DNA of 64,000 nucleotides from Paracyclopina nana (Eukaryota > Arthropoda > Copepoda > Cyclopoida > Cyclopettidae): the NCBI GenBank assembly GCA_019096065.1, contig JAGUCH010000007.1, positions 1,138,501 through 1,202,500 of the forward strand, written 5' to 3'. Each line of letters opens with the position of its first letter. The stretch's first letter is position 1. Both the position numbers and the translations under genes were made by a program. Under the pieces are notes generated by a model that had not been told where the DNA came from, ran no database searches, and saw nothing but the letters and a program-made list of their open reading frames with translations. Shown in pieces: positions 14,253 to 63,690 of this stretch.

Positions 14253-14405
14253 TTAAAGGGGGGTTAGATTAGAATTACCTAATCTTCCCCGGTATGATTC
14301 GTCTCATATGTTTGTACCCTCAGTTAAAGTTGGGTTTTTTTTTTCAAAAATGGCCCTTGTTTGTTCTAAATTAAAAATTGTCCTCCCACGATTGCTAATG
14401 CTAAA

Positions 14406-38692: not shown

Positions 38693-41117
38693 ATGGCAGT
38701 GAAAGAAAGGTCTGGTAGTGTAGCAACTGAACAAGATCCCCCTGTACAAGATGTCATTGAGTCCAGGAATGAAAGCCCCAACAAGCAAGAGCTGTCAATA
38801 TCAGAGACTGTCACTGATGATGACCTCTCTAGCATTGATCCTGAAGAAATGGGCCCCGAAGGAGTCTTGTACAAAAGCTTGACACAACGCAAGCAGAAAC
38901 TCTTGCAAACGGAAAAAATCCTTGCAGTTCATGATGTAGTGGTGCAGAAGCTCATTAACAAAGCAAGAGATGACTTGGTTTGGGAGCAATACATGAAGTG
39001 TGATGGTCATCCAGATCCTGTCTGTGTTAAGGAACTCAACACCTACTTCTCACTTTGGAAGGAAGACAAAAGAGAAAACATTGATGCTGTCTTAGACCGC
39101 ACTCTAGAAGTACTACCAATCATGTCAACACTGGAGGCTCTTATTGAAAACCCAGATGAGTGGGAGATCCCCTTAGAATCAGAGAGGAGTAGCAGGAGTT
39201 ACAAATCCAAGGTACAAGAGCGAATAAAAATCTTCAACGACATGAAGAGTTTACAACTTAAAAAACTGAACAGGGCAACCTATGATTTGCTCCTGGATGT
39301 GTCACCAATGGTGGATCAGGAGAGCAATGTGCTTCAGCACTTCCTGTCCTCAGATCTGGTGAGCCTGGGTCTTTGGGGAAATGTGATGGCTAAGAACATG
39401 CGAGTCAAAGGCACAAACTTTGAGTCCTTGGGATTTGGCTTTGAATTGCCTCAATCCCTAATGGGAACAGTTGGAGCTGTGAGGGTCATGAGAGTGGAAT
39501 ATGACCACTACTCTAAGATGTGCAAATCCAACAAGATCCCTCCAATTGCTTCCAAAGATGTTCCATCTTACATTGATTTGCTGGAGATACAGATCAAGGA
39601 CATTGAGCAGAAGATGCACCAGAAGAAGGCTAACATCAAGAGGCAGCAAATGGAACTTGAGGCAATTCAAAAAGCCAAGGAAGAAGAGGAGAAGGAAAGG
39701 ATGAGATTGCAGAAGATGGACAGGAAAGGAAAGGCAAAAGCTGGAATTGCAGCTGCTATGGCAGTTGGCAAACTATCAAAGACAACTGACTCTGAGGAAC
39801 AACCAGACACCAAAGACATTATTCCTGCATCCCAAAAAGAGCCATCAGATGAAGACTTGCTGGCAATTGGAGCCCCCACATCATCCAAAGAGAGAGATGC
39901 TCAAGCCCAAGTAAAGGAGATCCTTCAAGAGAGAATTGACTTGTACAAAGTGGACATTGAAGAGACTGAACTGAACCTCAGAAGAAACATCATTTTAGGA
40001 GGAGTGTTTTATTTTGATATGCTCAGGATTCCTCCTCAGCCAAAGAAAATTGGGAATTGGGTCATTTGCCAGCTGGAAACCCCTCAGTCTTTAAAGACCA
40101 TTCCTTGGAAAGCAGATTACAAGCCACCTGCTCCCCCAGATGAAAACACTGTGACCAAGAAAACTCCAGAGGAGATTGAGAGGGAAATCAAGTTGCAAGA
40201 GATGGAGTTGCAAAAGCTGGTTCTGGTTCATTTGAAACTGCCAAGTTCAACATTGTGGTTTGAGCCTCCCACCATTGTTCGCTGGGAGCCAGTAAGGCAA
40301 CATTGGAGCACTGAGGGATTCTTTGACGTGAAGTTTGATGAAGGCAGACAGATGCTGTCATTTCGAACAATCAATTTTGGAATCTTTGCCTTATCTGCTT
40401 TTCGCTTCTCAAACTTGCCATTACAAAGCTGGGAGCTGAGACCTGAAGGTGAAAACAAGGTTGTCATCAGCCTCTCTGCAGCTGCAGTTCAAGCAGAGTT
40501 TGAAGTTGGTGAGGGCACAGTCACTCTAGTTAAGTTCTCTAGTGGGAACAAGCCACCGGTACAAGGGATCCAAGACAAGCCGATGAGACTCAAGGATCTC
40601 ATCAAGGAAATGAGGCGTCAAGGAGTGGACATATTTCCAGATTATGATTCGCATTGCTACATTGAAGGTCTTCCACTCAAGGACATTCAGACTGAAAGAC
40701 ACTTGTACAACTGCATGGCTTTGACAGCCAACTCTCTGAACTTCACTTGGAGCAGATGGAATTTACTGTCAGGTTATGACAAGCTGATCATGCAGTATCG
40801 GGAAAAGCTACCTGGGGCTCCAGATGTCAGTCACCAGGTAACCCTTCCTTCAAGCTTTCTCAATTACTCTTAAGTGATTTTTTTGCTAGGTAATGCTGAT
40901 TACACCTGAAAGTACATCAGTGCTTGAATGCACTGAGGCATCACAGACCTTCAGTGACAAGCCTCTGGATGGATCAGTCCCATACTCAGACTTGTACACC
41001 TTGGCCTTGGATATCTGCAAGCCAGAAGTGCATGAACAGATGGCAAAGGCCAAAGCAGTGTTTGTCAACTCTGTGTATGAGTTTCTGTCATGCACCAAAG
41101 TTCTTTCCTATGCCTGA
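38693..41117 (+). CDS. DNAI7: Dynein axonemal intermediate chain 7 (CASC1/IC97 family)
   Basis: The product is a component of the inner dynein arm I1 complex of motile axonemes (IC97 in Chlamydomonas, CASC1/DNAI7 in animals). Exon 1 is 38693-40837 (715 codons), exon 2 is 40890-41117, joined at CAG|GTAACC...TTGCTAG in phase 0; total 790 aa. The start MAVKERSG follows stop-bearing leader sequence. Residues about 290-345 form a charged coiled coil (QMELEAIQKAKEEEEKERMR). The family's conserved C-terminal part includes WEPVRQHWSTEGFFD (about 530-545) and FRTINFGIFALSAFR. It faces the glucuronyltransferase gene tail to tail: its poly(A) signal (41297-41302) lies inside that gene's last coding exon. 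Family assignment is from recognised conserved segments. Confidence 0.88.
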
Positions 41118-44891: not shown

Positions 44892-47800
44892 CTGCAAAAA
44901 AAAGAGGAAAATTAATTTTTGAACCATTTTTCCCCACTCCATTTCAAATGTTGCAACGTGGAGTGCGTGCTTGATTCTTATTCCAGATAACAATCAATGA
45001 AAATCTAGACATAGCCCTTTCAATTCTTGGCCATGAATTTCAGTATCGAAAACTGAAAGGGAAATCTTTCTCGAGTTGTTGAGTCTCATTAATGATTATC
45101 TTGGGAAAAACCTATAAACTCGTCAACAAATTACAACTCCATGCTTGACATAAGCAATTAATTTGGTGCTAATCTAAAAAATGCCAATTTTTTATCTTAG
45201 CTTTGACCAGTATTGAGAATTGAGAACTGCAAGTGAGCAAAACTCGTGAGTAAATCCGGATTATTGCTCAACTTCCATTGCTTATTTCAGTATCGAGAAC
45301 TGACATAACAAGAGAACTGAGAATTGACGCATAAAGAAATTGCAAATTCTCCAACAAAACTCAATGCGTCAACATGAGTAAATCCGGATGAAGCCAGCTA
45401 ATCAACAAACTTCCCCCAATTTGTTCAGTATCGAGGACTGAACAATGAATCTCAGTAACATAACTTTGTCTCATTTGTGATTATCTTGAGCAAAACATGA
45501 AGACTCGTCAATAAATTACAATTCCATGCTTGACATAAACAATTAATTTGTCACTAATCTAAAAAATGCCAATTTTTTGCATTACCTTTGACCGGTGTCG
45601 AGAATCGACACCTTTTGAATCCGGATTATTGCTAAACTACCATTTCTTATTTCAGTATCAAGAACTGACATAAATAAGAACTGAGAGTTGTCACATGAAG
45701 AAATTGCAAATTCTTCAACTAAATCCCATGTGCCAACGTGAGTAAATCAGATGATGCATATGGAATATCGTCTACATACCTGACTGTGGTGCTTGGGGAA
45801 ACCGATGGGGTCATAGAAGGAATATCCTCTGGAGCCGCCCATGAATCCGGACGAGGCCTGGAGCATGGAGCCCTGGATGGGGCTGAAGGCCGAGGAGGTC
45901 TTGATGTTGCCCCCGTTGCCCGCGCCCGTGTGGTCGTAGCCGCCATTGTTGGCCGCGAACTGGCTGTGGTGGTTCCTCAGGTCCTCCATGTGGTGTCCCA
46001 TGTCGCGGGCGTGCGGGTTAAGCCGCGGGTCCATCAGGCTGCCGTAGTCGCGGTCATGCACAGCTGACGCGTAGGCGGCGGTCGCGGGGTCCATTTTGGG
46101 CCAGTAGGCGGAGGCGTCGAGCTGCGCCTGCCCGCTGCCGCCTCCGCCGCCGCCGCTGACCGGCATACTGGTCAGGCCGGCAGCTGTTGCGGCCGCCGCG
46201 GCCGCCGCCGCCGCCTGGCTGGCCTGCTGGTTGACGGCCTGGCTCGACTGGCTGCTCACTTGACCGGCCTGGTTGAGTACGGCCGGCCGTTTGTCCGGCC
46301 TGTCTGAGTGTTTCTGCATGTGCTTGGCCAAGTAGGTTTCTTGGGTGTAGGATTTGCCGCAGTATTGGCAAATGTGCGTTTTGAGGTGCTTGGACTCCTT
46401 GTGTTTGGGGATGTGCTCTAGGAGCGCGGTCTCGTCGACGAAACACTTGTAGCAGGAGTTACACTTGTAGGGTTTGTCTGTCTGGTGGCATCTCGAGTGG
46501 GACTGGAGGTTGCTCAGCTGACTGAAGGCCTTGGTGCAGCCGGGATGCCGGCACTTGTACGGCTTGTCACCCGTGTGCGTCCGGATGTGCTGTTGCAAAT
46601 GGGACAGCTGTGTGAACTTTCGCTGACAAATCTCACACCTGGAACAAGAGTCGGGATGAGCAGAGAAGCGCCACGCGTCAGCTGACTGCCACTTTTTGGT
46701 GCTAGCAAAATAGCTTCTGTTCTATATGAACTCTCTTTGTTACAGAATACATTTACTTTCGGTTAAAATGCATTTTTCCATACATTTGGATAAAATGCAT
46801 TTCTTGGGGTGAAGTTATTTTTTTTTTTTGGTAAAATCACATTTTTTTGTTGAAATACATTTTTTTGGTTAAAGTACAATTCTTTGGTTAAAATACATTT
46901 TTTTGTTGAAATACATTTTTTTTGTTGAAATACATTTCTTTGGTTGAAATGCATTTCTTTGGCTGAAATCAATTTCTTACAAGAAATATCGAATTTTTGT
47001 GGATTGAAACTTGATGAAAAGAAATTAGCTGATATCAGCAAGTTGGTCTAATTAAACCACTCCCACCACTTGTTACTACCAGAAAAAATGGCGCCACCAG
47101 GAAAAAAGCTGGCAAAAACCTGTTGTCTGGCAGGAATGCATTTTTGCAAAGTAATGCAAAAATCAACCGAGCATAATAAATTACTTTTCTTTTCCACCTT
47201 GCAAAAAAGCAAGCAACCAAGCATGCTTAAATAAAATGGCTACTTACTTGTAGGGCTTGATTCCCAAGTGTATTCTGGTGTGCTGAGAGAGGTAACTAGA
47301 ATTGGCAAAGGCCTTGTTGCATTGGGCACACTTGTAAGGCTTGGCCTCCCTCATGTGAATTTGAGTGTGCAACTGCAAATCTGCCTTGGAGCCAAAAATC
47401 TGCAAGCAAAAAAAACCATCATAGTATTTTGAGCAGTCCGTGATATGGGTTAAAGTAGGTCGCGCGCGCATTTTTTATGGCTCCCAACCCTAGGGCACAT
47501 TTTTGGTCAGTTATCATCTCCGCCTCGACGGTGGGGCCGAAAACACGCAAAGTAATAATAATTATAACCAGGCTGCGGTAAAAAAAGTGGTATATAATCA
47601 TACGGTAACTTTTTCACCCCAGAAAAATCATCATCGACCTAGTTGAAGAGTCAAGCAGCTGGAGCTAAGCGTGGTTTTGTTGTTGTTGTTGTTTTTGTTT
47701 TGATGACCGGTGCGCGCGGGAGTCAGCTGTTTGTTTACCTCTTTGCTAAGCTCCTCCCCCTTGCTGCTGCTATGCAGGCTGCTTCTACTGCTGTTATCTT

Positions 47801-50800
47801 CCTCTTCGTCCGAGTCATCGTCGTGATTTTTAGCACTGTTTTTCTCGTAGAATGGAGGGAGCATTATGCGGGCTGATTCCTCATCTGACGCGCTCTCAGC
47901 ACTGAGCTTGCCAATGACCATACTTTGGGTTTTTCGTGTATATAAAAAAAGAACTACATTCAGCTTGGAGCTAGCTTTGCAGTTTTGCAACAACTTGGCA
48001 CAACAATGGCAAAAAACTACTAACAGGAGTTGCTGCCATGCACTAAAAAAGCTGGCCCTGCTCGCATACGCACACACACACACTTTTATTATACAAGTCT
48101 GCTGCTGCCGCTATAAGGCATGCATGCAAACAACAACAGCTGACTTGGCTCGACGTCTACTACCCTTTTTTTCCGTGCTGTAGTTGTAGAATTCATCACA
48201 AAGACTTTGTGGCTGTAGTATCAAAAAATGTACCTGGACATGCATGCACCGCCTTCGAATAAGCAGCAGCTCCTATACCTCGCATGCCTTATACCTATGC
48301 CATAGCAGTAATAATAATAAGGCTGGATTTGAGGAAAACAGCTTGCAATTTCCATCAAAAATGCACATTTTATACAACATGATCATTTACAACAGTGCAA
48401 AAATGGAAGACAGCCGTGAGCTGGCTGTCAAAATTGCAATATTTGATTATTGAACATTTTTTAAATGAACTCGTCATTTTTCCTCGATTTGAGGCGATTT
48501 TCCCTTGATGCTTTTTTGACCATTTTTTGAACATTTCTCAATGTTTGGTCCCTTTATTTTTCCCCAATAACTTTTTTTGCGCCAATTAAATTCCCACAAA
48601 AAAAAGAAGGAAAAACGCTGTTTTTTTCGAGTACTTTCGCTGAAATCGAGCGGGCGGGTCGTCCACATTGCAATTTATGTGGCCCACTTGAAAAAAAGCT
48701 TGAACTTGCGGCTTGATTTATGTGATATGCACTTTGTCTGCCGCGATTTTTTGCCACCCCACCGCATTTCATGCGAGAGTGAGAGCGAAGTCATCCTCGC
48801 CGCAAATTCGCAACGGCAAAAAAACAACAACAACAAACGCCACGTGGTCAACTATTTTTTACGCGAAATCGAAAGAGGCAAATGATTATTGGGGCAAAGT
48901 TCCATGACCGAGTCCAATGACTTATACGCTATATTGAGCCAGACAGTCTGGAATCCACTTGACTACAGAAAGGCTATTGCCCCACACTCGAGGGGCCGGC
49001 AACAAAGCAGTTATGCCTCGCCAATGGCTTGTTGTTTAGCAGCGACTTCCTCGATCGCGCGTAAAAAGCGCCATAAATCAACGTCTTTAATCTAATTTTA
49101 CAAAAGTCAAAAAATGGAAAAAAAAACAATCTTAAAAAGGGCCGCGGGTGAACATTGGCCGGTTTTGTTGTTTTCCAGCTTTTTTGGGGCCGCTGCTGAT
49201 GCAGTAAAAATAGTTGAAAAAGATCTGGATTGGCCGCGTGTACATTTTACGGCCGCGCTCTTTGTGACGTGATGTCAGAACCCCGACAGTCTGGGGCTGA
49301 TCCGTCTGACAACGAAAATCATCTCTCATCGCGTGAATGCCTCGATCTCCAAAAAATAACCCCCCGTTTCAGCATCAGACACCTCGAGTCAAGGAACGAA
49401 AAATGAAACAAAGCATCAGACGGCAATAATTGTTGCGGCGCGCAGACGCCTCTAATGAATTGTCAAACGGCTTTTTCACCTTAATTTTTTCCGGTATTTT
49501 TTTCATAGTATTTTGTATGCCAATAGGAAAGTCGAATTTTTGGAGATTTTAAAAACCCGGGTGATTGGGGCAAAAAGAGACCAAATTGAATTTTGTGAGC
49601 TGGAAAAAAGGGCTTGAACTATTTATTTCCAAGAAGCTGGAGCGACAACTTTGGTTGGAACGGTCGACTGGATGCTCAGGTCCACCAGGATTTTCTTATC
49701 TTGGCTACTCATCAAGTGAGGGAAAAAACCCTTTTTTACAACCTAGGGGCCCTAACCTGGCATATACGGAGTACCATTGCCTCTCTTTCGGATCATTCAA
49801 ACGGACCAGGTCCAAAATTCCCGAATTTTCAACCTCCTTTTCAAAAAATGCCAATTGCATCGTAGTGCCGCATTCGGCCGCTAGATGGCGCGCGGAGCTC
49901 GAATGGCGACGTTTCGCGGAACGTCAGAAGCGGCGGGCGCTTATAAGTGGAAGGGAGATAATTTCCCTGAGCAAATAAAGGGTTTCACATGCGATGGCGG
50001 GGCCATAAAAAAACTATTACTTTATGGCTGAACTTCCCCTTGCCTCGACTCATCAAAATAATGAACTTTTATGCCATACGTGACATCCTCGAATTTCTGC
50101 ACACATCCAAAAGCTACTTTCATTAATTGTTTCCCTATATGTAAACCACGGATTCTTGCACTTTTCTTTTCTCAGTCATCGTGGCTTTGAAGAATGATCT
50201 GATTTTTTTTTGGCAATGAAACGTTTTCAAATCTCGCTAATGAGTAATGAGACTCGGTTGCTTTGCCCTCTTATTTTTATCAGTTTACAAGACTGAAAAC
50301 AACACGCTTACACCAATAAAATTTAAATCACTTTTATCGTACATTTTGCAGTATGTATGCTTTCTAATTTCAGCTTTGAAACCCAATTAAAACTATGTCG
50401 TAGCAACGCTTTAAAAAAGTCGCTTTCTTTTATCGCACTTTTCAGTTAGCAGCACTGAAAGAGCGCTCCAAAGGCGCAAAGATCTTCCAGACAAGTTTTC
50501 CACTTTGAACATTGCTGAACATTTTTGTGTACCTTTTCTCTGCGATTATCCTCGTTAATGTTATTCTCCTGCCCGGGGCTCTCAGGCACGACAAAAGGCC
50601 TGAAATTCTGCTGATGCTGCTGCTGATGGTGATGTTCCAATTTCAAATTCATGGTCATGACCCCTCCATAATGTCCAGTCGGTCTCACAACTGTGTTCGA
50701 AGAGGGACTACTTTCTGTCGACGAATTTCCTCCGCCATTGCCCACTTCCAGCCTGGTGATGGATGGGTCATTGGTGGGGTCAGCACTGGCCGCGAATCGC

Positions 50801-53800
50801 ATCAAGTGCGAATAGGGCGCGTACATGTTATCCAAAAGTGCCATTTTCCGAGCCTTCTTCACTCACTAATGGTTTGCCATGGAATGAAGCTTTTTTTTCA
50901 CGTGTTGCTCTCCCTCGCATATGCACGTACGCGCTTACTACATTTCACATGTGTGACATGTGGGAAAATTGCCGCCCTTGCTGCTTTTGGGCGCCTTTTC
51001 CACCATGGGCGATGGTACAAGTCCCGTGGGTATGGCAGGTGATAACATCACCACTCTGGGGCATTAGTATGCGAAAACGCGCGCGCGCGTTTCTCCAATT
51101 ACTTAGGTTGAAACGTGATGATATTACTTGAAATCATATGTTGTTAGACCATGGTAACAGGTGTATGTCGGTCTTTTTCCTTATAACAACATTTACCATT
51201 TTTTTAAATCTGATTTTATGAAGTGTGAATTGGGACTTGCAGCATGTAATTTAATGAGGAAATTAATTTAGGGAAGACTAATGTCGAAGATTGATGGGTA
51301 GAAATGTTCAGCAATGTTCATGTTGGAAAACTTCATGCGAAGATAGTTTTGCCTTCAATGCGCTCTTTCATTATTGAGGACTGAAAGTAGCACGCAAAGA
51401 AAGCGATATCTTTTGTCGTCATACATTTTAACTTTAAAAACATATAGAAACGGATATTGAATTGGACATCCTTTTCACTGTGTTGATTGGAAAAAATATG
51501 GTGCAAAAAATCAGCGATAGTTTTATGCGATAAAAAAAGTAGAGCAATTTCAGTTTAGAAAACTGATAGAATACTGAGAGAAAGCAACCAAGTCTCATTA
51601 CTCATTTGTGTCAATTGGAAGCAGTTTCATTGGCATAAAAATTGTAGTACAGTTTGAGATAAATTAGAGCGATTTAAGAGTGTACTAAAGTGTGCTAAAA
51701 CATGGTTAATTTATGCAGTAGTCACAATAGGTTGACCATTCAATTCATAACAAAGGTTTTTGTGCACGCACGAGCGAGTGCAGCGAAATTAAGTGTGGCG
51801 GTGGTCAAAATTGGTGTCACGTAGTGATTTCAATGCTCGTGCTAAATTCCGTGACTGGGGTTGAAAATTCGCCCCTAGGGGGTGAGGCAAAATTGCTCGT
51901 ACGTGATTTTGTCACCCTGCTACTTTTTTCACCTCCAATTTGCCAACATTGAGAAACAAAGGTGGCAGCTTTTTCCCAAAAAAAATAATGATAGCAAATG
52001 TGGTTTAAGGCCACATTTGCTATATTTTTCAAATAACAGATGCCGAAATTGTATCTGCATATAAATATATGTGCTGCTTTCCCTTTTTTGCTATATGGCA
52101 TTTTTTGCCTTTGAAGCCTTTAGAAAATCAATCGAATCGAATATGTGAGAGAAAAAACAGGATCATGTGAAAAAAATGCTGAAATGCAAATTCAGCTGCT
52201 GATTTGCATTGGGGAAAAAAGTGATTTTCAATCAGATCGCTGCGATTAACAATTGAGGGTAAAAATGCTCATTTGAATTTTCCCCCCTTTTTATTCAAAT
52301 GCAATCCACACATTCCATCTGCCTGAATTTTCATGCACGTTTGCATTTTGAGGAACCCTTTTCGGAAATCCTCAAAATGTAGTGGTAGTAGTACTAAGCA
52401 TATGCATGTAGATTTGGAGAGTAGCGTCACCTATTTGCATGATTTTTCCTGGGAAAGAAAAAGGCGCGCGCAAAACATGCATAATAATCATCACATCCAT
52501 GCCGCATGACTTGGCACTTTTTGTGTCAAAACACATCCAAGCTGATTTCAGCTGACCGCCTTTTCTAACTTTTTGCAATGATAAAAATCTTGACGTGAAG
52601 CTACTTAATTGTAGATAATTTCATTTCAGTATTGAGAACTGAAAAGAAGACTTGACGTTGATAATCAATTCTCATCAGATATTTGTTAGGCTGTTTGCAG
52701 TTTATCCGTCAAAAAAATCCCATTGAATTATAAAAACAGCACTGATTTCAGCTGACATAATTGCCGTTTTCTAAGTTATCGACTCTGAAAATCTTGACGT
52801 TAAACAAATAAAAAGATGAAAATTACATTTCAGTATCAATAACTGAAAAGTAGAGTTGAAGTTGGAAATTTCAGTATCAATAACTGAAAAGTAGAGTTGA
52901 AGTTGGAAATCAATTCTCATCAGGGATTTGTATGGCTTTCAGCAGTTTATGGGTCAAAAAAATACTTTTTTTTTGCAATGATGAAAATCTTGATGTGGAG
53001 TAAATCAATAGTTGAAAATTTCATTTCAGTATCGAGAACTGAAAAGTAGAGTGGAAGTTGGAAATCAAGTCTCATTAGGGATTTATTTGGCTTGTCCACG
53101 TTAGTTCATTCAAAAAATCCGGATGAATGACAAAAATATCGCCGGATGGATTCCAATGACATCAGAGTAGTTTTTCCCAGATTTCTACAAATCTCCGTCA
53201 TCAGGCTGCATATGGTGATATGTACAAAAGAATGCCAGAATTCTCACGACCCAAGCTGCAATTGTTGCTGAAAAGCATCATTTGCACAATGGGCTATAAT
53301 AGCTATAGCCACCCTCACAACACATCTGCTCAAAACCATTTAGTAGCATTACAGGGCCAAATACCATCAGTTGTAGCATTGGTCAAAGGCACTGACCACT
53401 CTGTGGTCATTGTCCAGTGGAGCTCGTGCGTGAAATGGTTCGACTTTTTAAGCACTTGAGCAAAACAGGTGCCACTGTTGGATTTCACAAAGGGGTCAAT
53501 TTACAACAACAGAGCATGGACCTCATTGTGTGCTGGAACTGAGGGTGCAACAATTAGCCAAAAAAGTGCAACACACTCGGAGCTGCAGCAAAAAATGCTT
53601 AATGCCCTGAAAAAACCACCACCACCCCATGATCACATGTGTCACAATTCAATTATCGCAATGCAATGTTTAAAGCTAATGCTCTTACTGGTTTTTTTTT
53701 GTAAACTACAGCATTTTCTTGACGAAGAAACTACACAGAGTCAAACTAATCACTAATGAGACTTGATTGAGTAACTTGCACTTTTACTTTCAGTCCATCG

Positions 53801-56800
53801 AACTGAAATGAAATTTAACACAATTCAGTTGCTGCACGTTCATATTTATTTTTCAGATACTACATCGATAATTTCAGAGAATTTTTTTGAACAGAATCAA
53901 AGTAATCACTACTGAGACTTGTATATGAGTAACTTGCATTTTCATTTTCAGTATGTCGCACTGAAATGAAATTTAACACAATTCAGTTGCTGCACATTCA
54001 TATTTATTTTTCGGATACTACATCGATGATTTCAGAGCATTGTTCAAAGTGAATGCTATTAGTTGTTTTCTGTAAACTACATCATTTTTCTGGCGAAGAA
54101 ACTGCACATAGACAAACTAATCACTAATGAGACTTTATGAGCAACTTGCATTTTCAATTTCAGTACACCACACTGAAATGAAATTTAACACATTTAAGTT
54201 GCTGCACGTTCATATTTATTTTTTCAGATACTACATCGATATAGCAGCAGTTTGCACAAAGACTTATACAGTCATAACTAGGTTTTTATGGCTGAAAATC
54301 CTGCTTTAACTCTCACAAAAAAGCAGCAGCTCCCTTCTTTTTTACGTACTACTACTGTACATCATAGCTGCAAAATACAGCTATGACAAATTGATAAAAA
54401 TACTATGGCAAAAACAGGTTATTTTGCTTTTTGCACTTGAAATCGACCTTTGTTTTTTGGTCCCATTTCAAGCTCCAACATCAAATGAAGGGTCTAAACA
54501 AAGCCATGGACGTAATTAGGATTTTCCCAAAGCTTTTGAAGGCAACAATGATGAAAAGGAGCATGAATATGCATCAACTTGATCAGCTGTAACTATGTGT
54601 AGTGAGCCGAACCCCAAAAATACAGAAGAATTAGCATAAAGCCGCGTCACACACACACACAACTGCAGTATATAGCTTTTTTCCCACCAAATTAGAATGT
54701 TTATGACTAACATCATCAGCTGGAGCCGAAGCAGCAGCATTTTTGGCCCCAAAAAACATCTGCTGCTTTCTTCCAATTTTGTTTATCAATGGGCGGGAAT
54801 CAAACTTGAGCATGAAAGCGTGAAAATGATCAATTATAGAATCTGCATGGGAACGCAAAAATTCAGGCTCCCACTAATCCGGATGTCATAATGCACTTTT
54901 AATGAAAAAGTTGAAACAGATGGTAGCTTTAAAAAAATGGTCAATTCTTTAAAATCAGCCCTGTAAATTTTTTTTCAAAATTAGGTGAGAAAATTCAAAA
55001 GATTGTTTACAGTGGGCATAAAGCCATTAAATTGATTGGCAGGTATCAAAACAGAGCTCAGGCCATCCGTTCGATCCATCACCCCTTTGTTTAAAAGCGC
55101 GGGTAATTATAAAAATAATGTACTAGTACGCGTCCCACTTTCTTCTGTTTTCAGCGAAGATAGATGGATAATTCTTCATTATTTTTCCGCCAAAAAAACC
55201 ACGCGGCAATCATTAATCAAAAAAGGCTGCACCATCATCATTATTACTTTCAGTATTGCTATTATTACAGAGAACGAGAAATGCTGTACATTAGCCGCGC
55301 GTCCCAATCGCCAATTCAGACTTGGCGCCCGATCCGTCAGAACCGAGCGGCAAAAAAGTGGGCACCACCTTGGCAACAACAAAGAAATTCATCGGAGGAG
55401 CAAAAAGGGCCAAAAATAAATATGCTGAGTCATCCTTGCGCTGCTGTCTAATTTCGCGGGAAATTGAGACGCATTGGAGCAATTAAAACTCGAGGGGAAA
55501 TCGATCTGTCAGCCGAGCAAAAGGGCTGAAAATGTCGGGGAAATTGGCTTTTGAATATGTGTGTGTGTGATATGGAATGAGCAAAAAGTGGCGCTTTTTA
55601 CAAGCCAAGGGTGGTCCATATGCAGTCAAGGACTGGAGAAAAAAGTGCTGGAATTCCACCGAGGAGTAAAAAACTCGTCAAAGCCGGAAAAGAAATCTTG
55701 CGGAGGATGGCCAGCAAAAAACCGTTCAACCCACTGACTGGATAATCATTGCTAAGAAAACCGTTCACCAAATCCGTTAATTTAACGCGCCATTGTTTCC
55801 AGCTCACTTTTTAAAAGAGGTTCTATTTATAATTTGATTTTAATATTGAAAAAATCCTTGTAGTCTTTATTTTTAAAAAAATCTAGTTTCTTGGATGCGC
55901 GCTGAACATTTTGAATAGGCCACTGTGCACAATTTTAAAAGGGGGGAATGCTCTTGATGAAGCTGCTGATGATTGACGACAAACTTGCAGATCAATTTTC
56001 AGTTAACATTTGTCGACGCGAGGAAAAAAGTTGGGCTTGCCCTACTTTCTAAAAATCCGTTTTTAAAGCATATATCTGAATTGTTGAATAAAAACAATAT
56101 TTCCTTGCTGTTTTGTGCCCGGCCAATCGAATCATATTTGCCATGTATGCCAAAAAGTGCGGAATTAGTTGGCCTATTTGCAGCAGCGAACCGCCAATTT
56201 TAAGGCCCCAAGGCAAACTGCATTATTGCATATTTCTGCTTAAGAAAAATCCAAACATTTTTTAAATGGCCTCCCCTGAAAAATATTTTTAGTGAAAATT
56301 GGGCCTTTTTTTAAATGACGCTTCTCTTTCATATTAAGAGCTCTAAATGAACTGTAGAGTAGCAAAAAACAAGTCCACATTAATTTCGCATTAATCAATG
56401 CGACGAGAATGCAAACAGTAATTTGATTGCAGCTGCTATTAAGAAAAATCGTGAAATCTGTACACACAAGTGCAAATTTTCATCGTTGTTGATTAATGGC
56501 CGAATTGGCGATGATCAGAACTGAAGATTTCATTGTTGACTAATCGATGTCTAACTAATAACACTCTCTTTATGTGGAACTCGCAATAGTACGCCCATAT
56601 TGCAAAATCCACATAATTTTTTCGTTCGCGTGATGAGCAAAGATGTTGTGCAGAACCACGTTGCAATTTTTGCAATTTTTGCAATTTTTGCCAGCACAGC
56701 TACTCAAATCATACAGCCATTTTTTTCTGGGAAAAATTGCCTTTCAATGGAGCAACCCTTTTTGGAAATTCAATAAATTCGTGGGAAAAAGCCTTAAAAT

Positions 56801-59800
56801 CGCCGAAATTCGTCGGCGTCGCGTCGGGACGCGCTCAATTTCCGTGATATCAATGAATTTTGAGCATTTCCAAAAAGGGGTGAATTTTTTGTTCCCGTAT
56901 TGTATTTATTCACTTGCATTGGAATTCAATAAAGTCCCAAATCTGCCATGAAACATTTTTTTTGGGGCGGAAAAAGGCAACCATTTTTTAGTAGTTAAAC
57001 TTTGAGCAATAAAATGCTGCGTAAAAAATCAATTTCTCTAACTTTTTCGTTATTTCAAAGTCCTAGACAATTTTAAAAGATCAGCTGATTTTTAGGTGGA
57101 ATTTTTTTAAAAAATGAGGTTTTTCTTAAAGCACTGAAATTATTGAAAATTTGCCTTTATCAGTAATGATAATCAGCAAGATAAGGGAAAAATGTCAACG
57201 GAAGCAAGACGAAATTGGAGAAGCCCTCGGGAGAGATTTCTTTAGAAAGCTCCAAATTGAAGCCGAAAAATCGAGGAAAAGGGGCAACAATTTTTTTCCC
57301 ACATTCCAACTCTCGGCAATTGATTGTTCCCCAAATAGTAGAAAAGCCGTAGTAGGATTTTGATATCAGAATCACATTTTCCCGAACTGTGGAAATTCTT
57401 TTGTTGTACATGTTGCATCTGCAGTTGAGCATCATGGAGTGATCAGCTGCTTTGAGAAAAGCCTGGGAAGAATTTCCAGGCCAAATGTAATAATTGACTT
57501 TTTCGAATGAGTGTGCAAAAATAGTCGTCGTGGACCCAAGAAAGAAAATATTGGAATGTGAGTGAGCAAACAATGATGGATCTTTTTTTGACGTCAGCAG
57601 CAAGCCTTCTACTTCTACTACATTTGTGCAATGCACACACAAAAATACACTGTGTGTGTGTCTTTAAAAAAACCACTTTCATTTTTGTTACTGCTCAAAA
57701 AAGAACTTTGTCAGCTGTTTGTTTACATTTCTGATAGCTTAACCTGTCTCAGGAAACATGCAAGTCAGGTCAGCTGTTTGTTTACTAAAAAATTTGACCT
57801 CAAGTTGTCGCTTTTAAAGCAACCAATTTATATTTAGTTTTTTTCAGGCAAAAGTCAGCTGTTTGTTTACCAACAACAAATCAGCTGAAGGCTTCTGCTG
57901 CAATATTCAAGTGATGACATGAGTTTTGCTTTGACCACATGTTTTTGTCAGCTGTTTGTTTAGTTATGATCAACTGATGACTTCTGCTTTTTGTCAGCTG
58001 TTTGTTTACAAAGTCACATAATCTTCTACCATAGTATGCTCTGTAAGCGAAAATTCCAAGTTGACTTATTTTCATGTCAGCTGTTTGTTTACGCATAAAT
58101 CTGGCCACATTTTGATAAGGGTCAAACTCTTTTTTTATCAATCTTTTTACTGTTAATGATGGCATAAAAAGAGCAACAGCTGCCACCACATTGTTGTCAT
58201 CAAGTTCACATTATTGGAAACACTTTTAATGGACTACACATTATTAGAGCACCTGCAGCTCCAAAGTGGAAAAAAGAGCCGAAAAATCAGATAAGGAGCC
58301 ACATTTTCGCATTATTATTATCATCAAGAATAGAGAAATGACTATCAATGTCCTTACCATAGAATCTGCCATTTGCTGCCTGCTCACCTACAATTATAAC
58401 AAAGCAAACATTTTAGCGAGTGGATCCCCAGTGTGCCACGCTGTGAAAGCCAATAGTGAGAATGCAGCAATTTTTTGGCCTTATGCCATCATCTTCTCTT
58501 TCACATTTTAGATCGATTACTTTCTTTCAGTGCCCAGACTAGGCCTAGGGCGCCGTGGAAATTATCGATACTTAAAAAATTGTTTCTTATTATAATGCGT
58601 GACCTATTTTCGGGGCTGGGCCAAGTTTGACGGGACTCTGGCAATAGATGATGTAGTAAAGGGCTAAGAGAGACCAAAAGTGATGGATGACTTTTCATGG
58701 GCCTGGCAAACTTGAAACTCAAGCATGGTGATCTCTCTACATGAGCAACGCCATTTCATAATCAGCACATGATTCTAATCAGCATTCCCGGCTCTCGGTG
58801 CAGATTTGTAAACAAAAACAAACATTTGACCCGTGCGCGCGCCCGAGAATGTAAATAAAACATTTGACCCGTATGCTCATGAATGTAAACAAAAGTGTTT
58901 TGAAGTTTTTAAAGAGTCTCAAGAATCTCATGAAGGTGAAAAATTAGGCAGGTATTTTTGAAAGAAGACAAATATTTGACCAGTATGCTGATGCTCGAAA
59001 AAGAGTTGCATGCTACCTGCAGCCAATTATTCATTTTTCAAATGGTGCCAAAAAGTGATTTCAGGGTGTGGCTCACTATACTTTTTTTGCTCACTCAATT
59101 ATGGGTGGTAGCTTTGTGATTTTCCAAGGAGATCAAGCCACTTAGAAATGTGTGTATGGAGCTTCGAAAAAAGGCAAGCCATCATTTTTTTTCAATACTC
59201 AGTGCCTTAAAAAAAGTGCCTCGAGTTGATGACAAATGGGGAAAAATGCGACAGTTGTGATACTTCTTCATTAGGGAAGATATATATCACATTAAAGGTC
59301 TTAATTAATGACACTTTTTGACGAATTTGCCTAATCAAAGTGTGTGAAAAACTGATATCGAAATCTGTAATTATGGAGCAGGAAACGCCGCACAACAAAA
59401 CAGCAGCGGTAATATTTTCTCGAGTTATCAAAATATCCGAAATTATTTTACGACTGTTGTTTTTACGCGTAATGGCGAACGTCACGCGATGCTCGCGTCC
59501 AAATTGTTAAAGAAGTCCGAATGAAACGTAGCGGAACTTTCAAACGGTTCCAATCACGCAACCCCAAAAACTCATCAACATTCACCATCCATGAAAATCT
59601 TTCGTAAGCACAACATTTGCATTGCACTTTAAGTTTCAGTCCTGAAAACTGACACAGAATTTGAGCTGAGACAATCAAGTCTCATTAATTATCGAGCATC
59701 ATTTTCCATTAAATCAGTTTTACATCGTTTTTCAGTTGGCAAAGTTCATTAATCTTAGCTAGAAAAACACGACGTTGCGTTGATTTAATTGACATCCATC

Positions 59801-62800
59801 TCCGAATTTGGACATTCAGTTCAAGAAACTGAAAGCAAAATCCGCTTCGAGAAATCTCGTCTCTTCACTCTTTTTGTCGAATTGTAAAAATTGACGTTCC
59901 AAAAAATAGCACAAAACTACAAAGCTCCAATGTCGCTTCTCAATTCCAAAACGCATCAAAAAATGGTTGAAAAAAGTGCGCCCTCTTTCCACGCGACACT
60001 CAGCGCCACCTTTGGGTCATGGTGTGAACTAAAACCTATGACAGCCCTCATTGGTTCGCAGAAGCCATTGAACGACAAAAGCCCCCCGGGACTCGGCTCC
60101 CCAAAAGCGGTTGACATCAAAATGGGCGCCATTATCCAATATGGCAGCCAATGAAAAAGGCCAACAACCTACCTTGCCAACTTGAGGACACATTTTGCAC
60201 TGGTATTTCCGTCCTGAATTCGGGGGGTGTATGTGGCCTTGGGCCTGGCCTTTGGCCGCGTTGATGGGCTGTGGCACCACGAGGCCGGTTTGACCGGCTG
60301 AACCACTCGTGGCTGGTGGCGAGGATGAGGCTGAAGAGTTGCTTCGATGCCCGTAAAGACCACTTGACATTTGCTGACCTTCTAAACCGCGGTCATCAAG
60401 GCCTGAAAAAAGAATGTTTTAAAGACGATTTGGAATTGAAAACGACATTTACGTTTTTGAAACGTGGTGCAATTTTTTGACAGAGCTGTTTGTACAAATC
60501 AATAAAAGAAGTCGAGAGACCAAATTGTTTTTATTCTACTTTGCTTTCAGTTCGCGAAACTGAAATGATTGCAATTTAAAATGTTACTAAGCTATGCAAA
60601 TAGAGGAAGCGAATTTTAGCTGTAAATAAATCCATAGAATTGAAATTTTTCAAAATCAGCTTACAAGAAGTAATGATAGGCGATTGTCACATAGCAGTTT
60701 TGCATTCAGTTTCCAATACTGAATCTCAGCAAAGAATCAAAATGTTTCTTTGCGTCAAAGTTTTCCTCTGACAGAGAAACTGGCACAATTTTTGCAGCAC
60801 AGCATAATATTTGGCACAGTAGCTATTTTTACTAATTGCTCCACTGAAGGAAATTCATGCAAATATTTTTTGCACATGGTTCAATGGCCACAGAAGCAAA
60901 TAGCCACCCTGCTGCCTTGCAATAAAGTTCTCATCAGAAAACTTACTCAATTATGATTGTGAAAAATTGGACATTAATTAGCCTGGTTGTGGGGTTGGCT
61001 ATTTTTTAGCATATTTTGGCCATTTTTTAGCCATGGCCACCGAGCTGCTGCTGCTGCTGCTGCTGCAGTATGTGCTCATAAAAAATTGACCACCTCAAAA
61101 AGGTGGCGTGAAAGAAAAAGCCCTAATTATTTGGCAATTTTGTGAGCTACATGTGTACATATATATCGACTTTTTCCACCTTCATTCGAATTGTGCGTGA
61201 CTCTCTTAGAATTATAAAGTTAGCCAAATTGCTATTACAGGCTCAAAAGGTGCCCGAGTGGTTTTCTCCTTTTTATGGCACTTTTGATTATGAAATGGCT
61301 CTTAATTGTATTGAAGTGATTGAAGTTGGTGTGGACACAATGCAGCTTCAAATTGCCACGGATAAACGAGATGATACTACTTTGTTGTTCATGTAATGTT
61401 ATTGTTATTCCCCCTTCTGTATTTTATGTAGGACACTTTTTGCTCTGTCCAGGAACTGGCTGCTGCTGCTGCTCACCCACAGGTTCACCGTACAACTCAT
61501 TTTTTGCCTCCATTCTAAAGCCATATAGTCAGAAGAGCAAGTGTATAGTGAGGGAAATTTACGATGTGCAGTTTTGAAAATGCCATTACACATGTATCGG
61601 TGTTTGTACCAGAAGGCATATTTTTGTGCGGCAAAGTAATTTTTTGGCAGCACAATTTGAACAAACTGTATAAATGAGTCATGAGACGTGATTTCTTTCT
61701 TCGGCATTTGCTTTCAGTCTGCAATACTGAATTCTCGCCATGAAAACGCTTATAAACGTATATGATCTTTTCAGCTATATTTTACATAACAATAAAAATT
61801 GAATAATTTCGACATCGCTTTCAGTTTGTGCTACTGAAAGTCACATATGATGTAAAACATTTATTTTCTTAATAACTGCTTCGATAGACGTTAAAATAAT
61901 AAAACTGGGCTCTTTAAAAAAATGCCGATCATAAATGATACTAGATTATCTCAGCCCAATTTTGCATTCAGTTTTCAAAACTGAAATTATCATAAGAGGT
62001 GGAAAGTTTTTAAGCATACAGATTCATCAGCACAGTTCATGTTAAAACATAGTTGGTCATTATAATCAATTGAAAGAGCCGGAGCCATTTTTCACAGCTA
62101 AATTTCCCATTGTGTACTCAGTGTATATGTGTGTGGGGAGTGGGGAAGCAAAAAAGTAGAGATGCCATCTTAACCACTCAGTCTTAAAAAGAGATTTTTA
62201 CTTGATGTACACGACTTGACAAACCGCATTATAACAATATCTCTGATGATCACAGTTCGAAAACTAGGTCGAGATTTTGGTCATTCAGACAGCAAGGCAG
62301 CGAGGTGCAATAGCTATTTCGGTGAATTAATGGAATTGATGGCGAGACATGATAATGAGTTATCTGTACAAAACTAACAATGCACTCTGCATACTGCATT
62401 TTATGCCCTAAAAAGTGCGGTCGTGGTGCTGCTGTTGCTACCCCGCTTGGTAATTTTATTGGCCGATTAAAATCACCTTGCTGAAATGTTATGGGCTCGT
62501 AAAAATGGAAATGAAGTAGTTTCATGTCCGATTAAAAGCTCAACAGCAGCAGCAGGGGAGCTCGCGAGCCGCCATGAATAGATAATTGAGCAACAAAAAA
62601 TTGGGCACCCGATTTTTTTTTCAGGCAAAAAAATATTATGAGCATGCACTGGGGAATTTGGGTCAATATTGTTTGCTCACTCTTAGGCTATATGTAGGTT
62701 TTCTGATAAAAAAAATCCTCTTATCAGGCACAGAATATTACGGGAGAAATGTAAAAACTGAGGTGTACTAGATAGGCCAAAATCAGCTGATTTTCAGTGA

Positions 62801-63690
62801 AGGTCTCAAAACTGAATTGTAAGTCAGGGATTTCACTTTGCAGAGCAAAAGGAGCTTTTTATTGCACTCTGATTTGTGCAATGCATGCAGGCTTTAGAAA
62901 AGGCTTTTTTTTATCAGTTGTAGCATTTTCATGTTTAGCTCACTCCTGTTGTCACTTTTAGAGCAAATAAAAGCTTACAGTTTCAGTTGCTAAGCCATTT
63001 TGGGAATTATTTATTTTTCTCCCACAGTGAATTGAAAATTCTGAGCTTTCTACTCTTCACTGGTTTCATAATCATTTACTTCACTCAACCTTTTATATTT
63101 TCCTAGCTGTAGGACTCATTCAAGACAAAGCACATGTTAATGCGACTCTCTAATCATCTTTCAAGTTTGCGTTCATTGCCCAAATCTGGAGCGTAATTGA
63201 AATTCAATCATATTTTCCTCGCTTGACATTTAATATTTTTTACTTTAATATTTTTTTGGCCAAGCAACTCATTCTAGACAAATCACATCCTAATGAGTCT
63301 CTCTATTCATCTTTCAATGTTGCGTTCAGCACTCAAAACTGAATCGTAATTCCAAGAGTACGTCAATTTTAAAATAAAGCTTTACGTTTAAGCTATCCCA
63401 GTACAAATTACGTAAGGCTTACCAAGATGTGAATACTGAACCATAGTGTGGTGAGCTGATGATTGCGGTGGAGCAAATCTGGAGAAAAACCTCTTGGACT
63501 CTTCGAGCTCTCGCTCTAAAATGTCCTGGTCGACTGGACCACCAGGATGACCACCACCGTGGTGACCATCGTTGTTGTTGTCCAAGTCTTCCGGATCCTC
63601 CACGTTGTTCCGGGCACGAGCAAGGCCAAAAGGCCGCAATCCCAGGGTCGCGGCCAGCTTTTCAAGCTTTCGATCACTGCTGCAGTATGT
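44757..63690 (-). CDS. rn: Rotund/squeeze/LIN-29-family C2H2 zinc-finger transcription factor (3' part of gene)
   Basis: DNA-binding regulator of the family that includes Drosophila rotund and squeeze and nematode LIN-29, which act in limb and neuronal patterning and in developmental timing. Joined exons: 63423 to about 63685, 60402-60173, 47399-47248, 46638-45780, 44891-44757. They encode KYQCKMCPQ, then IFGSKADLQLHTQIH, AQCNKAFANSSYLSQHTRIH, CEICQRKFTQLSHLQQHIRT, a CRHPGC finger with KAFSQLSNLQSH, NSCYKCFVDETALLEH and CQYCGKSYTQETYLAKH: six fingers with family-specific linkers. The tail is rich in Q, A and G and ends with NQLISLSQIRNYAHQP. All junction phases agree. The 12.8-kb intron holds two alternative ATG exons. 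Upstream exons lie beyond the window. Rotund and squeeze cannot be separated on this sequence. Confidence 0.9.
45039..45059 (-). repeat. 7-7-7 palindrome copy 1
   Basis: TTTCAGT, ATCGAAA, ACTGAAA; perfect arms. GAGTCTCATTAATG follows about 30 bp to the right. Confidence 0.85.
45285..45305. repeat. 7-7-7 palindrome copy 2
   Basis: TTTCAGT, ATCGAGA, ACTGACA; one arm mismatch. Confidence 0.75.
45423..45443 (-). repeat. 7-7-7 palindrome copy 3
   Basis: GTTCAGT, ATCGAGG, ACTGAAC; both outer bases changed together, keeping perfect pairing. TGTCTCATTTG follows on the right. Confidence 0.85.
45650..45670. repeat. 7-7-7 palindrome copy 4
   Basis: TTTCAGT, ATCAAGA, ACTGACA; one arm mismatch, same as copy 2, of which it is a tandem duplicate. 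Confidence 0.75.
45780..46638 (-). CDS. rn: Zinc-finger gene, main finger exon
   Basis: 859 nt, entered in phase 2 after TTGTTCCAG and left at CAG|GTATGT. It encodes fingers 3-6 and the low-complexity part (a nine-alanine run, GGGGGG, HHMEDLRNHHSQ). It is much more GC-rich than the surrounding introns, with GCC/GGC codons in the alanine and glycine runs. Confidence 0.93.
46750..46985. repeat. Intronic minisatellite, about 18-20-bp unit
   Basis: About ten imperfect copies of TTTGGTTGAAATACATTTC follow each other inside the 609-bp intron 46639-47247. Copies differ in T-run length and A/G at one site (AAATACATT, AAATGCATT). Confidence 0.85.
47248..47399 (-). CDS. rn: Zinc-finger gene, exon with finger 1 (His half) and finger 2
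   Basis: 152 nt, entered in phase 0 after CTTGCAG and left in phase 2 at CAA|GTAAGT. It reads IFGSKADLQLHTQIHMREAK, then finger 2 with KAFANSSYLSQH, then LGIKPYK. The Cys pair of finger 1 is on the preceding exon (60173-60402), so this exon can be used without it. Confidence 0.92.
47722..47738 (-). promoter_or_regulatory. E-box/forkhead-like motif overlapping a 5' splice site
   Basis: The plus strand reads TCAGCTGTTTGTTTAC at 47723-47738, identical to the clustered motif at 57.7-58.1 kb. On the gene strand its end is the GT of the donor of exon 47739-47921. Confidence 0.45.
47739..47921 (-). CDS. rn: Zinc-finger gene, candidate alternative first exon 2
   Basis: 183 nt (61 codons) from ATG (MVIGKLSAESASDEES) to the donor GAG|GTAAAC, phase 0, which fits directly onto the exon starting at 47399, 340 bp downstream. 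The peptide is acidic and serine-rich (HDDDSDEEEDNSSRSS). No acceptor in the right phase precedes it, so it is best read as a first exon. The intron side of the donor, GTAAACAAACAGCTGA, is the repeated motif of the 57.7-58.1 kb cluster. Confidence 0.55.
49879..49892 (+). promoter_or_regulatory. CTCF-like site CCGCTAGATGGCGC
   Basis: A close match to the animal CTCF core CCRSYAGRKGGC, in a CG-rich patch about 1 kb downstream, in the direction of transcription, of the alternative first exon 50533-50844. Confidence 0.4.
50278..50298 (+). repeat. 7-7-7 palindrome copy 5
   Basis: TATCAGT, TTACAAG, ACTGAAA, with TAATGAGACT at 50245-50254 on the left. Confidence 0.75.
50440..50460. repeat. 7-7-7 palindrome copy 6
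   Basis: TTTCAGT, TAGCAGC, ACTGAAA; perfect arms, 73 bp from the donor of alternative exon 50533-50844. Confidence 0.85.
50533..50844 (-). CDS. rn: Zinc-finger gene, candidate alternative first exon 1
   Basis: 312 nt (104 codons) from ATG (MALLDNMYAPYSHLMRFAA) to the donor AAG|GTACAC, phase 0, compatible with the exon at 47399. In-frame TGA and TAG lie just upstream of the ATG, so translation starts here. The peptide is rich in N, S, H and Q (KLEHHHQQQHQQNF), as is common in activation regions. Drosophila rotund also has a second promoter (roughened eye) that yields a different N-terminus on shared fingers; the arrangement here looks similar. Transcript evidence is lacking. Confidence 0.6.
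51366..51386. repeat. 7-7-7 palindrome copy 7
   Basis: TTTCATT, ATTGAGG, ACTGAAA; one mismatch. Confidence 0.65.
51548..51568 (-). repeat. 7-7-7 palindrome copy 8
   Basis: TTTCAGT, TTAGAAA, ACTGATA, with CCAAGTCTCATTA at 51588-51600. Confidence 0.8.
52624..52644 (-). repeat. 7-7-7 palindrome copy 9
   Basis: TTTCAGT, ATTGAGA, ACTGAAA; perfect arms; CAATTCTCATCAG to the right. Confidence 0.85.
52828..52848 (-). repeat. 7-7-7 palindrome copy 10
   Basis: TTTCAGT, ATCAATA, ACTGAAA; perfect arms; first of an exact 41-bp tandem duplication. Confidence 0.85.
52869..52889 (-). repeat. 7-7-7 palindrome copy 11
   Basis: Same sequence as copy 10, 41 bp on; CAATTCTCATCAG to the right. Confidence 0.85.
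53024..53044 (-). repeat. 7-7-7 palindrome copy 12
   Basis: TTTCAGT, ATCGAGA, ACTGAAA; perfect arms; CAAGTCTCATTA at 53066-53077. Confidence 0.9.
53788..53808 (+). repeat. 7-7-7 palindrome copy 13
   Basis: TTTCAGT, CCATCGA, ACTGAAA; TAATGAGACTTG at 53754-53765. Confidence 0.9.
53946..53966 (+). repeat. 7-7-7 palindrome copy 14
   Basis: TTTCAGT, ATGTCGC, ACTGAAA; TACTGAGACTTG at 53911-53922. Confidence 0.9.
54158..54178 (+). repeat. 7-7-7 palindrome copy 15
   Basis: TTTCAGT, ACACCAC, ACTGAAA; TAATGAGACTT at 54125-54135. Confidence 0.9.
57711..58092. promoter_or_regulatory. Cluster of six TCAGCTGTTTGTTTAC motifs
   Basis: Copies at 57711-57726, 57770-57785, 57855-57870, 57948-57963 (last base G), 57994-58009 and 58077-58092, all in the same orientation and spaced 46-93 bp apart. 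CAGCTG is an E-box and TGTTTGTTTAC fits the forkhead consensus. The sequence between copies is not repeated, so this is not a simple tandem array. It is a candidate enhancer of the host gene; factor identities are inference. Confidence 0.6.
58805..58998. repeat. Short repeat TGTAAACAAAA...CATTTGACCCGT
   Basis: AACATTTGACCCGT occurs at about 58821 and 58858 and ATATTTGACCAGT at about 58971. TGTAAACAAAA or TGTAAATAAAA precedes the first two and recurs near 58884. Each contains a forkhead-like GTAAACA or GTAAATA. Confidence 0.55.
59634..59654 (-). repeat. 7-7-7 palindrome copy 16
   Basis: TTTCAGT, CCTGAAA, ACTGACA; CAAGTCTCATTA at 59676-59687. Confidence 0.85.
59814..59834 (-). repeat. 7-7-7 palindrome copy 17
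   Basis: ATTCAGT, TCAAGAA, ACTGAAA; AATCTCGTCTCTTCACT to the right. Confidence 0.8.
60173..60402 (-). CDS. rn: Zinc-finger gene, exon with Cys half of finger 1
   Basis: Entered in phase 1 after TTTTTTCAG (G|GC CTT) from the 63423 exon. It encodes GLDDRGLEGQQMSSGLYGHR, a serine-rich linker, and RKYQCKMCPQ. Two donors are possible: CAA|GTTGGC at 60182 gives a normal C-x12-H finger with the next exon, whereas AAG|GTAGGT at 60173, the better consensus, adds VGK inside the finger. Confidence 0.88.
60545..60565 (+). repeat. 7-7-7 palindrome copy 18
   Basis: TTTCAGT, TCGCGAA, ACTGAAA; perfect arms; GTCGAGAGACC about 35 bp to the left. Confidence 0.85.
60704..60724. repeat. 7-7-7 palindrome copy 19
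   Basis: ATTCAGT, TTCCAAT, ACTGAAT; both outer bases changed together, pairing kept. Confidence 0.85.
61045..61065. repeat. (CTG)7 microsatellite
   Basis: Seven perfect CTG units followed by CAG, in an intron. Confidence 0.9.
61712..61732 (+). repeat. 7-7-7 palindrome copy 20
   Basis: TTTCAGT, CTGCAAT, ACTGAAT; ATGAGACGTGATT at 61681-61693. Confidence 0.8.
61819..61839. repeat. 7-7-7 palindrome copy 21
   Basis: TTTCAGT, TTGTGCT, ACTGAAA; perfect arms. Confidence 0.85.
61966..61986. repeat. 7-7-7 palindrome copy 22
   Basis: ATTCAGT, TTTCAAA, ACTGAAA; outermost pair mismatched. Confidence 0.8.
62792..62817. repeat. Palindrome copy 23, longer spacer
   Basis: TTTCAGT and ACTGAAT separated by 12 bases; the only copy with a spacer other than 7. 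Confidence 0.6.
63324..63344 (+). repeat. 7-7-7 palindrome copy 24
   Basis: GTTCAGC, ACTCAAA, ACTGAAT; TAATGAGTCT at 63291-63300. A decayed tandem copy without intact arms lies near 63168-63188. Confidence 0.7.
63423..63685 (-). CDS. rn: Zinc-finger gene, upstream coding exon (5' edge uncertain)
   Basis: It ends at CTTG|GTAAGC in phase 1 and joins the 60402 exon exactly. It encodes KLEKLAATLGLRPFGLARAR, an acidic DPEDLDNNND stretch, GHHGGGHPGG and SRFAPPQSSAHHTMVQYSHL. The frame continues left without an ATG before a stop. A tandem CAGCAG acceptor at 63677-63682 is the likely start of the exon, although its pyrimidine tract is weak. Upstream exons are outside the window. Confidence 0.75.

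Follow-up and report, generated by a model that had tools for sequence, protein, structure and literature searches.

A short palindrome of the Paracyclopina nana genome is the core of a dispersed ~150-bp element clustered near contig ends

The inverted 7-bp arms of TTTCAGT-N7-ACTGAAA form the core of an oriented ~150-bp element, which carries further boxes at rigid spacing and is dispersed over all 10 contigs of the genome, with its exact copies clustered near contig ends. The arms are conserved well in excess of the rest of the element, and their changes do not covary. Dispersed repeats normally decay evenly, whereas here the 21-bp dyad has kept its letters and its spacing, and the 46-bp distance to a second box has been preserved as well, although the rest of the element shows one-third divergence. 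It is moderately probable that the element is an old transposon-like repeat, spread near chromosome ends, in which the palindrome is a constrained putative site for a dimeric protein.

Palindromes in the zinc-finger gene of the window

The window, C7:1,138,501-1,202,500, is the whole 64-kb stretch analysed. It holds 11 exact copies of the palindrome, and a further 12 relaxed copies share the N7 spacing, the whole set spanning 45.0-63.4 kb. With a tolerance of 3 mismatches in the 14 arm bases, 28 matches were found in the window versus 8.5 expected, a number that 0 of 100 shuffles reached. All 22 of the matches with 0-2 mismatches fall at 45,038-61,986. Two copies have both outer bases changed and still complementary (45,423, GTTCAGT/ACTGAAC; 60,704, ATTCAGT/ACTGAAT) and, with the 11 exact copies, give 13 complementary palindromes. 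The total at spacer 7 is 23 once the copy at 63,324 (3 mismatches) is included, and a 24th pair, at 62,792, has a spacer of 12. The counts of an earlier note on this DNA (24 copies, 13 complementary, 23 at spacer 7) were reproduced; its coordinates were off by one, the first copy starting at 45,038. Five other three-mismatch matches (17,006; 17,619; 36,541; 52,770; 56,261) look like chance. The element copies and palindromes of the window are as follows.

44994..45138, plus strand: element copy; exact palindrome 45038-45058; nhmmer score 38 bits
45285..45305, no strand: palindrome with 1 mismatch; only a weak match to the element model
45423..45520, plus strand: element copy; GTTCAGT/ACTGAAC palindrome 45423-45443
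45650..45670, no strand: palindrome with 1 mismatch; only a weak match to the element model
50205..50303, minus strand: element copy; palindrome 50278-50298, 1 mismatch
50422..50500, minus strand: weak element copy; exact palindrome 50440-50460, overlapping an open-frame end
51326..51407, plus strand: weak element copy; palindrome 51366-51386, 1 mismatch
51545..51642, plus strand: element copy; palindrome 51548-51568, 1 mismatch
52582..52721, plus strand: element copy; exact palindrome 52624-52644; 66 bits
52787..52869, plus strand: partial element copy in a 41-bp tandem duplication; exact palindrome 52828-52848
52867..52969, plus strand: second half of the 41-bp tandem duplication; exact palindrome 52869-52889
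52981..53120, plus strand: best element copy of the window; exact palindrome 53024-53044; 77 bits
53701..53851, minus strand: element copy in a tandem run of three; exact palindrome 53788-53808
53878..54009, minus strand: element copy; exact palindrome 53946-53966
54082..54222, minus strand: element copy; exact palindrome 54158-54178
59591..59692, plus strand: element copy; palindrome 59634-59654, 1 mismatch
59808..59921, plus strand: element copy; palindrome 59814-59834, 1 mismatch
60462..60567, minus strand: element copy; exact palindrome 60545-60565
60666..60767, minus strand: element copy; ATTCAGT/ACTGAAT palindrome 60704-60724
61624..61734, minus strand: element copy; palindrome 61712-61732, 1 mismatch
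61799..61868, minus strand: weak element copy; exact palindrome 61819-61839
61929..62024, minus strand: element copy; palindrome 61966-61986, 1 mismatch
62792..62817, no strand: arm pair with spacer 12, the odd copy of the earlier note
63103..63188, minus strand: element copy with a decayed palindrome (5 arm mismatches), outside the 24 of the earlier note
63249..63357, minus strand: element copy; palindrome 63324-63344, 3 mismatches

These palindromes sit between exon-like open frames of a minus-strand C2H2 zinc-finger gene, which we take to be a rotund/lin-29 relative. The copies at 45.0-45.7 kb are plausibly intronic, because the frame near 45.8 kb runs into CAG/GTATGT, a good donor. One of the 23 spacer-7 palindromes, that at 50,440, extends into the last part of an open frame. 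A scan of the entire window with the model of the ~150-bp element, with E up to 0.1, gave 47 matches on both strands and none starting below 44,985.

Elsewhere in the window, three muscle myosin heavy chain genes lie in tandem on the plus strand, each with an open frame of ~5 kb (7370-12457, 18146-23260 and 27836-32920); the best PDB matches of the window muscle myosin are presumably insect chains, followed by spider chains. In copepods, as outlined in PMC3912159, muscle myosin genes are numerous and lack mutually exclusive exons, and the tandem genes of the window resemble, on that outline, the use of gene copies rather than of alternative exons. A tRNA gene lies at 35184-35254 (minus strand), a Casc1-type axonemal protein frame at 38594-40873 (plus strand), and a tandem array of 19/56-bp units at 46823-46988, beside a zinc-finger exon. 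A different dispersed repeat of ~230 bp occurs at 14016-14255 and 34670-34899 and in the sampled loci L016, L058 and L060, with 77-94% likeness between loci. The stretches 33842-34101, 34129-34542 and 6127-6309, which are 86-94% alike to L045, L021 and L008, are by their likeness probably other young repeats.

The element and the conservation of its arms

Alignment of 92 exact copies, oriented by expectation-maximisation, reveals a common longer sequence. A AAAATCTTGACG box precedes the palindrome by about 36 bp, at a fixed distance, and CAATCGAGTCTCATTA, ATTTGATTTG and CCAAAAAA boxes follow it at fixed distances. Sixty loci were sampled by exact arms, and the other copies in them are therefore linked to selected ones. 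Loci L012 and L013 (all N), L037 and L038 (inside the window) and the overlapping parts of L023, L051 and L056 were left out before counting. Iterated nhmmer searches, after removal of overlapping weaker matches (281 reduced to 157), yielded 157 non-overlapping element copies in 266,858 bases of sampled loci, window included; 22 of these lie within the window, in both orientations.

Conservation fades just beyond the ~150-bp unit, which extends to about 190-280 bp where flanking boxes are visible. A GTTCATCTAC box is found before the unit in 26 of the 157 copies, or in 23 after three locus-edge artefacts (distances -2822, -1382 and -2611) are discounted, versus 2.8 expected. A GTAGATGAAC box, inverted relative to GTTCATCTAC, follows the unit in 30 of 157 (8.6 expected). 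Both flanking boxes are present on 7 of 157 copies, the box distances are variable, and none of the 22 window copies carries either box. By sequence, these inverted boxes resemble worn terminal repeats on some copies; a search for perfect terminal inverted repeats gave boxes on a minority of copies, variably placed. No target-site duplication was evident when the flanks around the boxes were read by eye, the ends of the element not being fixed.

The rigidity of the module was also seen without reference to the arms. The genome-wide pattern TCTCATT-N8-ATTTGNTTTG occurs at 98 sites versus 0 for its control; 42 of these sites have an exact palindrome at exactly -46, one has it 8 bp off, and 55 have no exact arms within 60 bp, counts in which C9:5,956,626 and C10:150,159 may be misassigned because 14 exact palindromes are unplaced. 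In the window, the TCTCATT box stands at exactly +46 in 12 of the 23 palindromes, and the other 24 registers total 7, with none above 2.

Among 99 copies that were not chosen for exact arms, the 14 arm columns are 94% consensus versus 67% elsewhere (spacer omitted); for the 22 window copies the corresponding values are 95% and 59%. Because the first model included the arms, the search was repeated blind to them. A model of the right half returned 62 non-central copies, 27 with perfect arms and 20 with one mismatch. Of the 57 arm-blind copies with at most 4 mismatches, 54 are exactly in register, whereas the best of 301 shifted control positions had 3 mismatches and most had 6-8. A model of the left half returned 8 copies, 6 of them with perfect arms.

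The element copies themselves are old or fast-evolving. The nearest sampled neighbour is 68% alike at the median (140 copies, mostly from the sample chosen by exact arms), and the closest genome-wide match of one copy, from 36 candidates scored, is 80% alike, most best matches lying in the same C3 domain. In close pairs the arms are 93-97% alike and the freest columns 62-80%. Spacers change no more slowly than the freest columns, with likeness in close pairs of 0.694 versus 0.798, 0.645 versus 0.671 and 0.561 versus 0.623. The tandem pair at 53,788 and 53,946 (53788-53966) differs at 4 of 7 spacer positions, at none in the arms and at 2 in the right 50 bp. This one striking pair suggested a hypervariable spacer, but across close pairs the spacers are only slightly less alike than the freest columns. 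The long branches between copies, though drawn from a sample chosen by exact arms, favour selection on the arms where they now sit over constraint on a spreading lineage alone; alternatively, the arms may owe their conservation to constraint that acted on the element's active ancestors rather than to selection at their present sites.

Distribution over the contigs

The exact palindrome occurs 392 times in the 91.95-Mb genome, versus 2 for a reversed-pattern control; 2 in 92 Mb agrees with the earlier estimate that a chance match is expected far less than once in 64 kb. With 392 exact copies across all 10 contigs, the proposed confinement to one zinc-finger gene is true inside the window only. 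Spacers of 8-20 combined gave 51 matches genome-wide versus 77 for the control, so the geometry is fixed at spacer 7, as in a dimeric site with fixed half-site spacing. Among these 51 long-spacer matches, nine are copies of a single 31-mer, TTTCAGTAGTTTGGTGGCAGAAGTACTGAAA, on one strand or the other, found with the rest of the 51 on C1, C3, C4, C5, C8 and C9, and four more have another core in common; the long-spacer matches with common cores are other repeats carrying the same arms.

Positions were assigned to 378 of the 392 exact sites, the 14 unplaced ones all lying beyond C9:2,873,609 in contig order. C7 has 141 copies, C3 97 (9.44-10.24 Mb), C6 and C8 28 each, C5 15, C4 9, C1 and C2 5 each, C9 at least 49 and C10 at least 1. 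Among the C1-C9 matches listed, 360 of 377 fall within 2.0 Mb of a contig end, versus 39% expected, and at least 91 of the 924 100-kb bins hold exact copies. Exact copies are present at both ends of C6, C7 and C9; none of the matches listed falls within the first 2 Mb from the left end of C1, C3 or C4. The earlier note had held that equal density across the genome would make this an ordinary dispersed repeat; the copies are instead strongly clustered near contig ends. CCTAACC-type (TTAGG-like) arrays stand at the starts of C2, C5, C6 and C7, which therefore look like chromosome ends. The TTAGG-like arrays, the Casc1-type frame and the myosin matches speak against a nematode, an origin considered at first; the arrays and the myosin genes suggest instead a copepod with a small genome. 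The start of C1 (L005) is a CCTGG-type satellite of 79.5% GC, and the starts of C8 and C9 (L012, L013) are N throughout. The loci around the sites, of which a few were inspected by eye, contain unrelated ordinary protein-coding frames. Two of the loci, L064 at C3:10.15 Mb and L070 at C6:0.27 Mb, share a 3-kb duplication that is 96% alike. A search of viral contigs returned zero matches.

Explanations and known systems

In the favoured explanation, the outer parts of chromosomes would have been colonised by a dispersed, oriented, non-coding ~150-bp repeat that is probably an old family of transposon-like kind. The palindrome would be the putative binding site of a homodimeric (or two-headed) DNA-binding protein, made of two inward-facing TTTCAGT half-sites whose centres are 14 bp apart, across an unconstrained 7-bp spacer. 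The fixed distances of the further boxes would suit a single protein assembly that recognises the module in full. Both the dimeric protein and the transposon origin are what we infer from the features of the repeat. A broader proposal, that the copies are genome-wide docking modules for one dimeric complex, marking the outer megabases, spread by transposition and kept by selection in place in a manner akin to pairing-centre or dosage-compensation motifs, is doubtful. If selection in place is true, the genome holds hundreds of putative protein-binding sites whose function near chromosome ends is testable; if only the needs of the element itself are served, a mobile family not described before has its cis-signals in the palindrome and boxes. 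A limited literature search found nothing like this repeat, and papers containing both arm sequences were unrelated by title. Of three readings offered earlier, the site for a dimeric protein fits best and the RNA hairpin is disfavoured, while the core of a mobile repeat is partly supported by the long element and the inverted boxes on a minority of copies, with no target-site duplication evident.

An ordinary miniature transposon, in which the palindrome and boxes would be its own transposition signals in cis (e.g. a transposase site), kept via intact lineages and with no host role, is possible though unlikely. The dispersal of copies in both orientations among unrelated genes and the inverted flanking boxes on a minority of copies accord with it, and repeats commonly cluster near contig ends. 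However, with copies as far apart as noted above (68% at the median, 80% for one query), 44% of the 62 arm-blind copies keep all 14 arm bases, which argues against such an origin because long terminal branches should have eroded the arms; nor was a target duplication evident by eye around the boxes.

It is less likely still that the sites are a host module for chromosome ends, which may bring a protein to the outer megabases and so serve pairing in meiosis, attachment to the nuclear envelope or the state of the chromatin. Recruitment to nematode pairing centres is by zinc-finger proteins. The concentration within 2 Mb of contig ends (360 of 377 exact copies listed), the occupation of at least 91 of 924 bins and the recurrence of the same rigid module on different contigs are consistent with this idea, but the distribution is very uneven, from 5 each on C1 and C2 to 141 on C7, the left 2 Mb of C1, C3 and C4 have no copies listed, and a contig end need not be the end of a chromosome.

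It is very improbable that the palindromes are intronic RNA hairpins (7-bp stem, 7-nt loop) that act in splicing or in small-RNA production. The arms are complementary, their sequence as read may end like a 3' splice site, and the consensus strand from an early model gave a better fold than its 200 shuffled versions (z -2.85). An extended 12+9-bp hairpin in that early consensus was rejected as partly an artefact, because overlapping wrong-strand matches had made the model more symmetric; the cleaned consensus (157 copies) is without the left half of the outer stem. Across the seven arm pairs of the 99 copies, the arms deviate singly, with 62 single changes versus 2 complementary and 2 non-complementary double changes. 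Genome-wide, the outer pair is unchanged in 392 cases, singly changed in 114 and 123 and doubly changed in 24 (controls 2; 7 and 3; 15). Independence would give 36 double changes, and 13 of the 24 are complementary versus 11.5 expected. Joint changes of the outer bases, which the earlier note had read as a possible mark of pairing or dyad symmetry, tend if anything to be avoided, a pattern that a single binding site composed of two half-sites would produce. The compensatory changes of a structured RNA stem were thus not found, in the 99 copies or at the outer pair genome-wide, and the outer arm bases, which do not covary, disfavour a stem. Copies also lie in both orientations within one gene, and the search for Rfam families returned one tRNA in the window and none in 12 loci.

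There is similarly little to recommend the idea that the motif is the promoter for a large set of tiny small-RNA genes, arranged in the manner of the C. elegans piRNA genes with their Ruby motif: a short constrained motif in large domains, in both orientations and among ordinary genes, would suit it, but the motif is different, its core is symmetric, conserved boxes lie on both sides and no variable product window was identified. Least credible is a tyrosine-recombinase crossover site, in which, as in the phage lambda core sites with their inverted arms around a variable overlap, 7-bp inverted arms would enclose a 7-bp variable overlap; the free spacer between fixed arms and the tandem pair at 53,788/53,946, with its changes in the spacer (4 of 7) and right 50 bp (2) and none in the arms, are of this form, but most tandem or duplicated pairs keep their spacer and conserved sequence continues through both sides of the palindrome.

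Among known systems, the proposed transposon-like repeat resembles MITEs and other small non-autonomous DNA transposons in being a short, non-coding unit in hundreds of dispersed copies, intronic and intergenic and in both orientations, and in the inverted flanking boxes of some copies. Unlike in MITEs, no target duplication is evident, the ends are not firm, the copies are very diverged, and conservation is much higher in the internal palindrome than in the remainder of the element. A further general class is that of operator-type dyad sites, which are bound by dimeric proteins. The palindrome shares with them two inverted half-sites at fixed spacing, a free spacer and half-sites that vary independently, but it is embedded in a longer rigid module, and the protein is here putative.

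Ruby-motif piRNA genes have the core motif CTGTTTCA and cluster in large domains. These C. elegans genes, as outlined in PMC4015492, are like the palindromes in that motif clusters lie in large domains among ordinary genes. The consensus here, TTTCAGT-N7-ACTGAAA, is not the Ruby core CTGTTTCA. The ISX element of Drosophila miranda is derived from a Helitron. It carries dosage-compensation sites, as outlined in PMC4384637, and on that outline would likewise disperse a protein-binding site (putative in the present case) over a chromosomal domain; the motif is different, and the repeat described here is on all 10 contigs, concentrated near their ends.

The pairing-centre motifs of C. elegans are bound by HIM-8 and ZIM-1/2/3, in the outline given by PMC8455136, and like the palindromes are many short copies enriched near chromosome ends. 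As outlined there, pairing centres use one end per chromosome, with a chromosome-specific motif, whereas one motif serves all contigs here and lies at both ends of several (C6, C7 and C9); pairing centres are moreover a nematode system, and the present organism is not a nematode. By analogy, the repeat, whose ends are unproven, is perhaps best filed near the small non-autonomous DNA transposons, and would work like a dispersed operator array.
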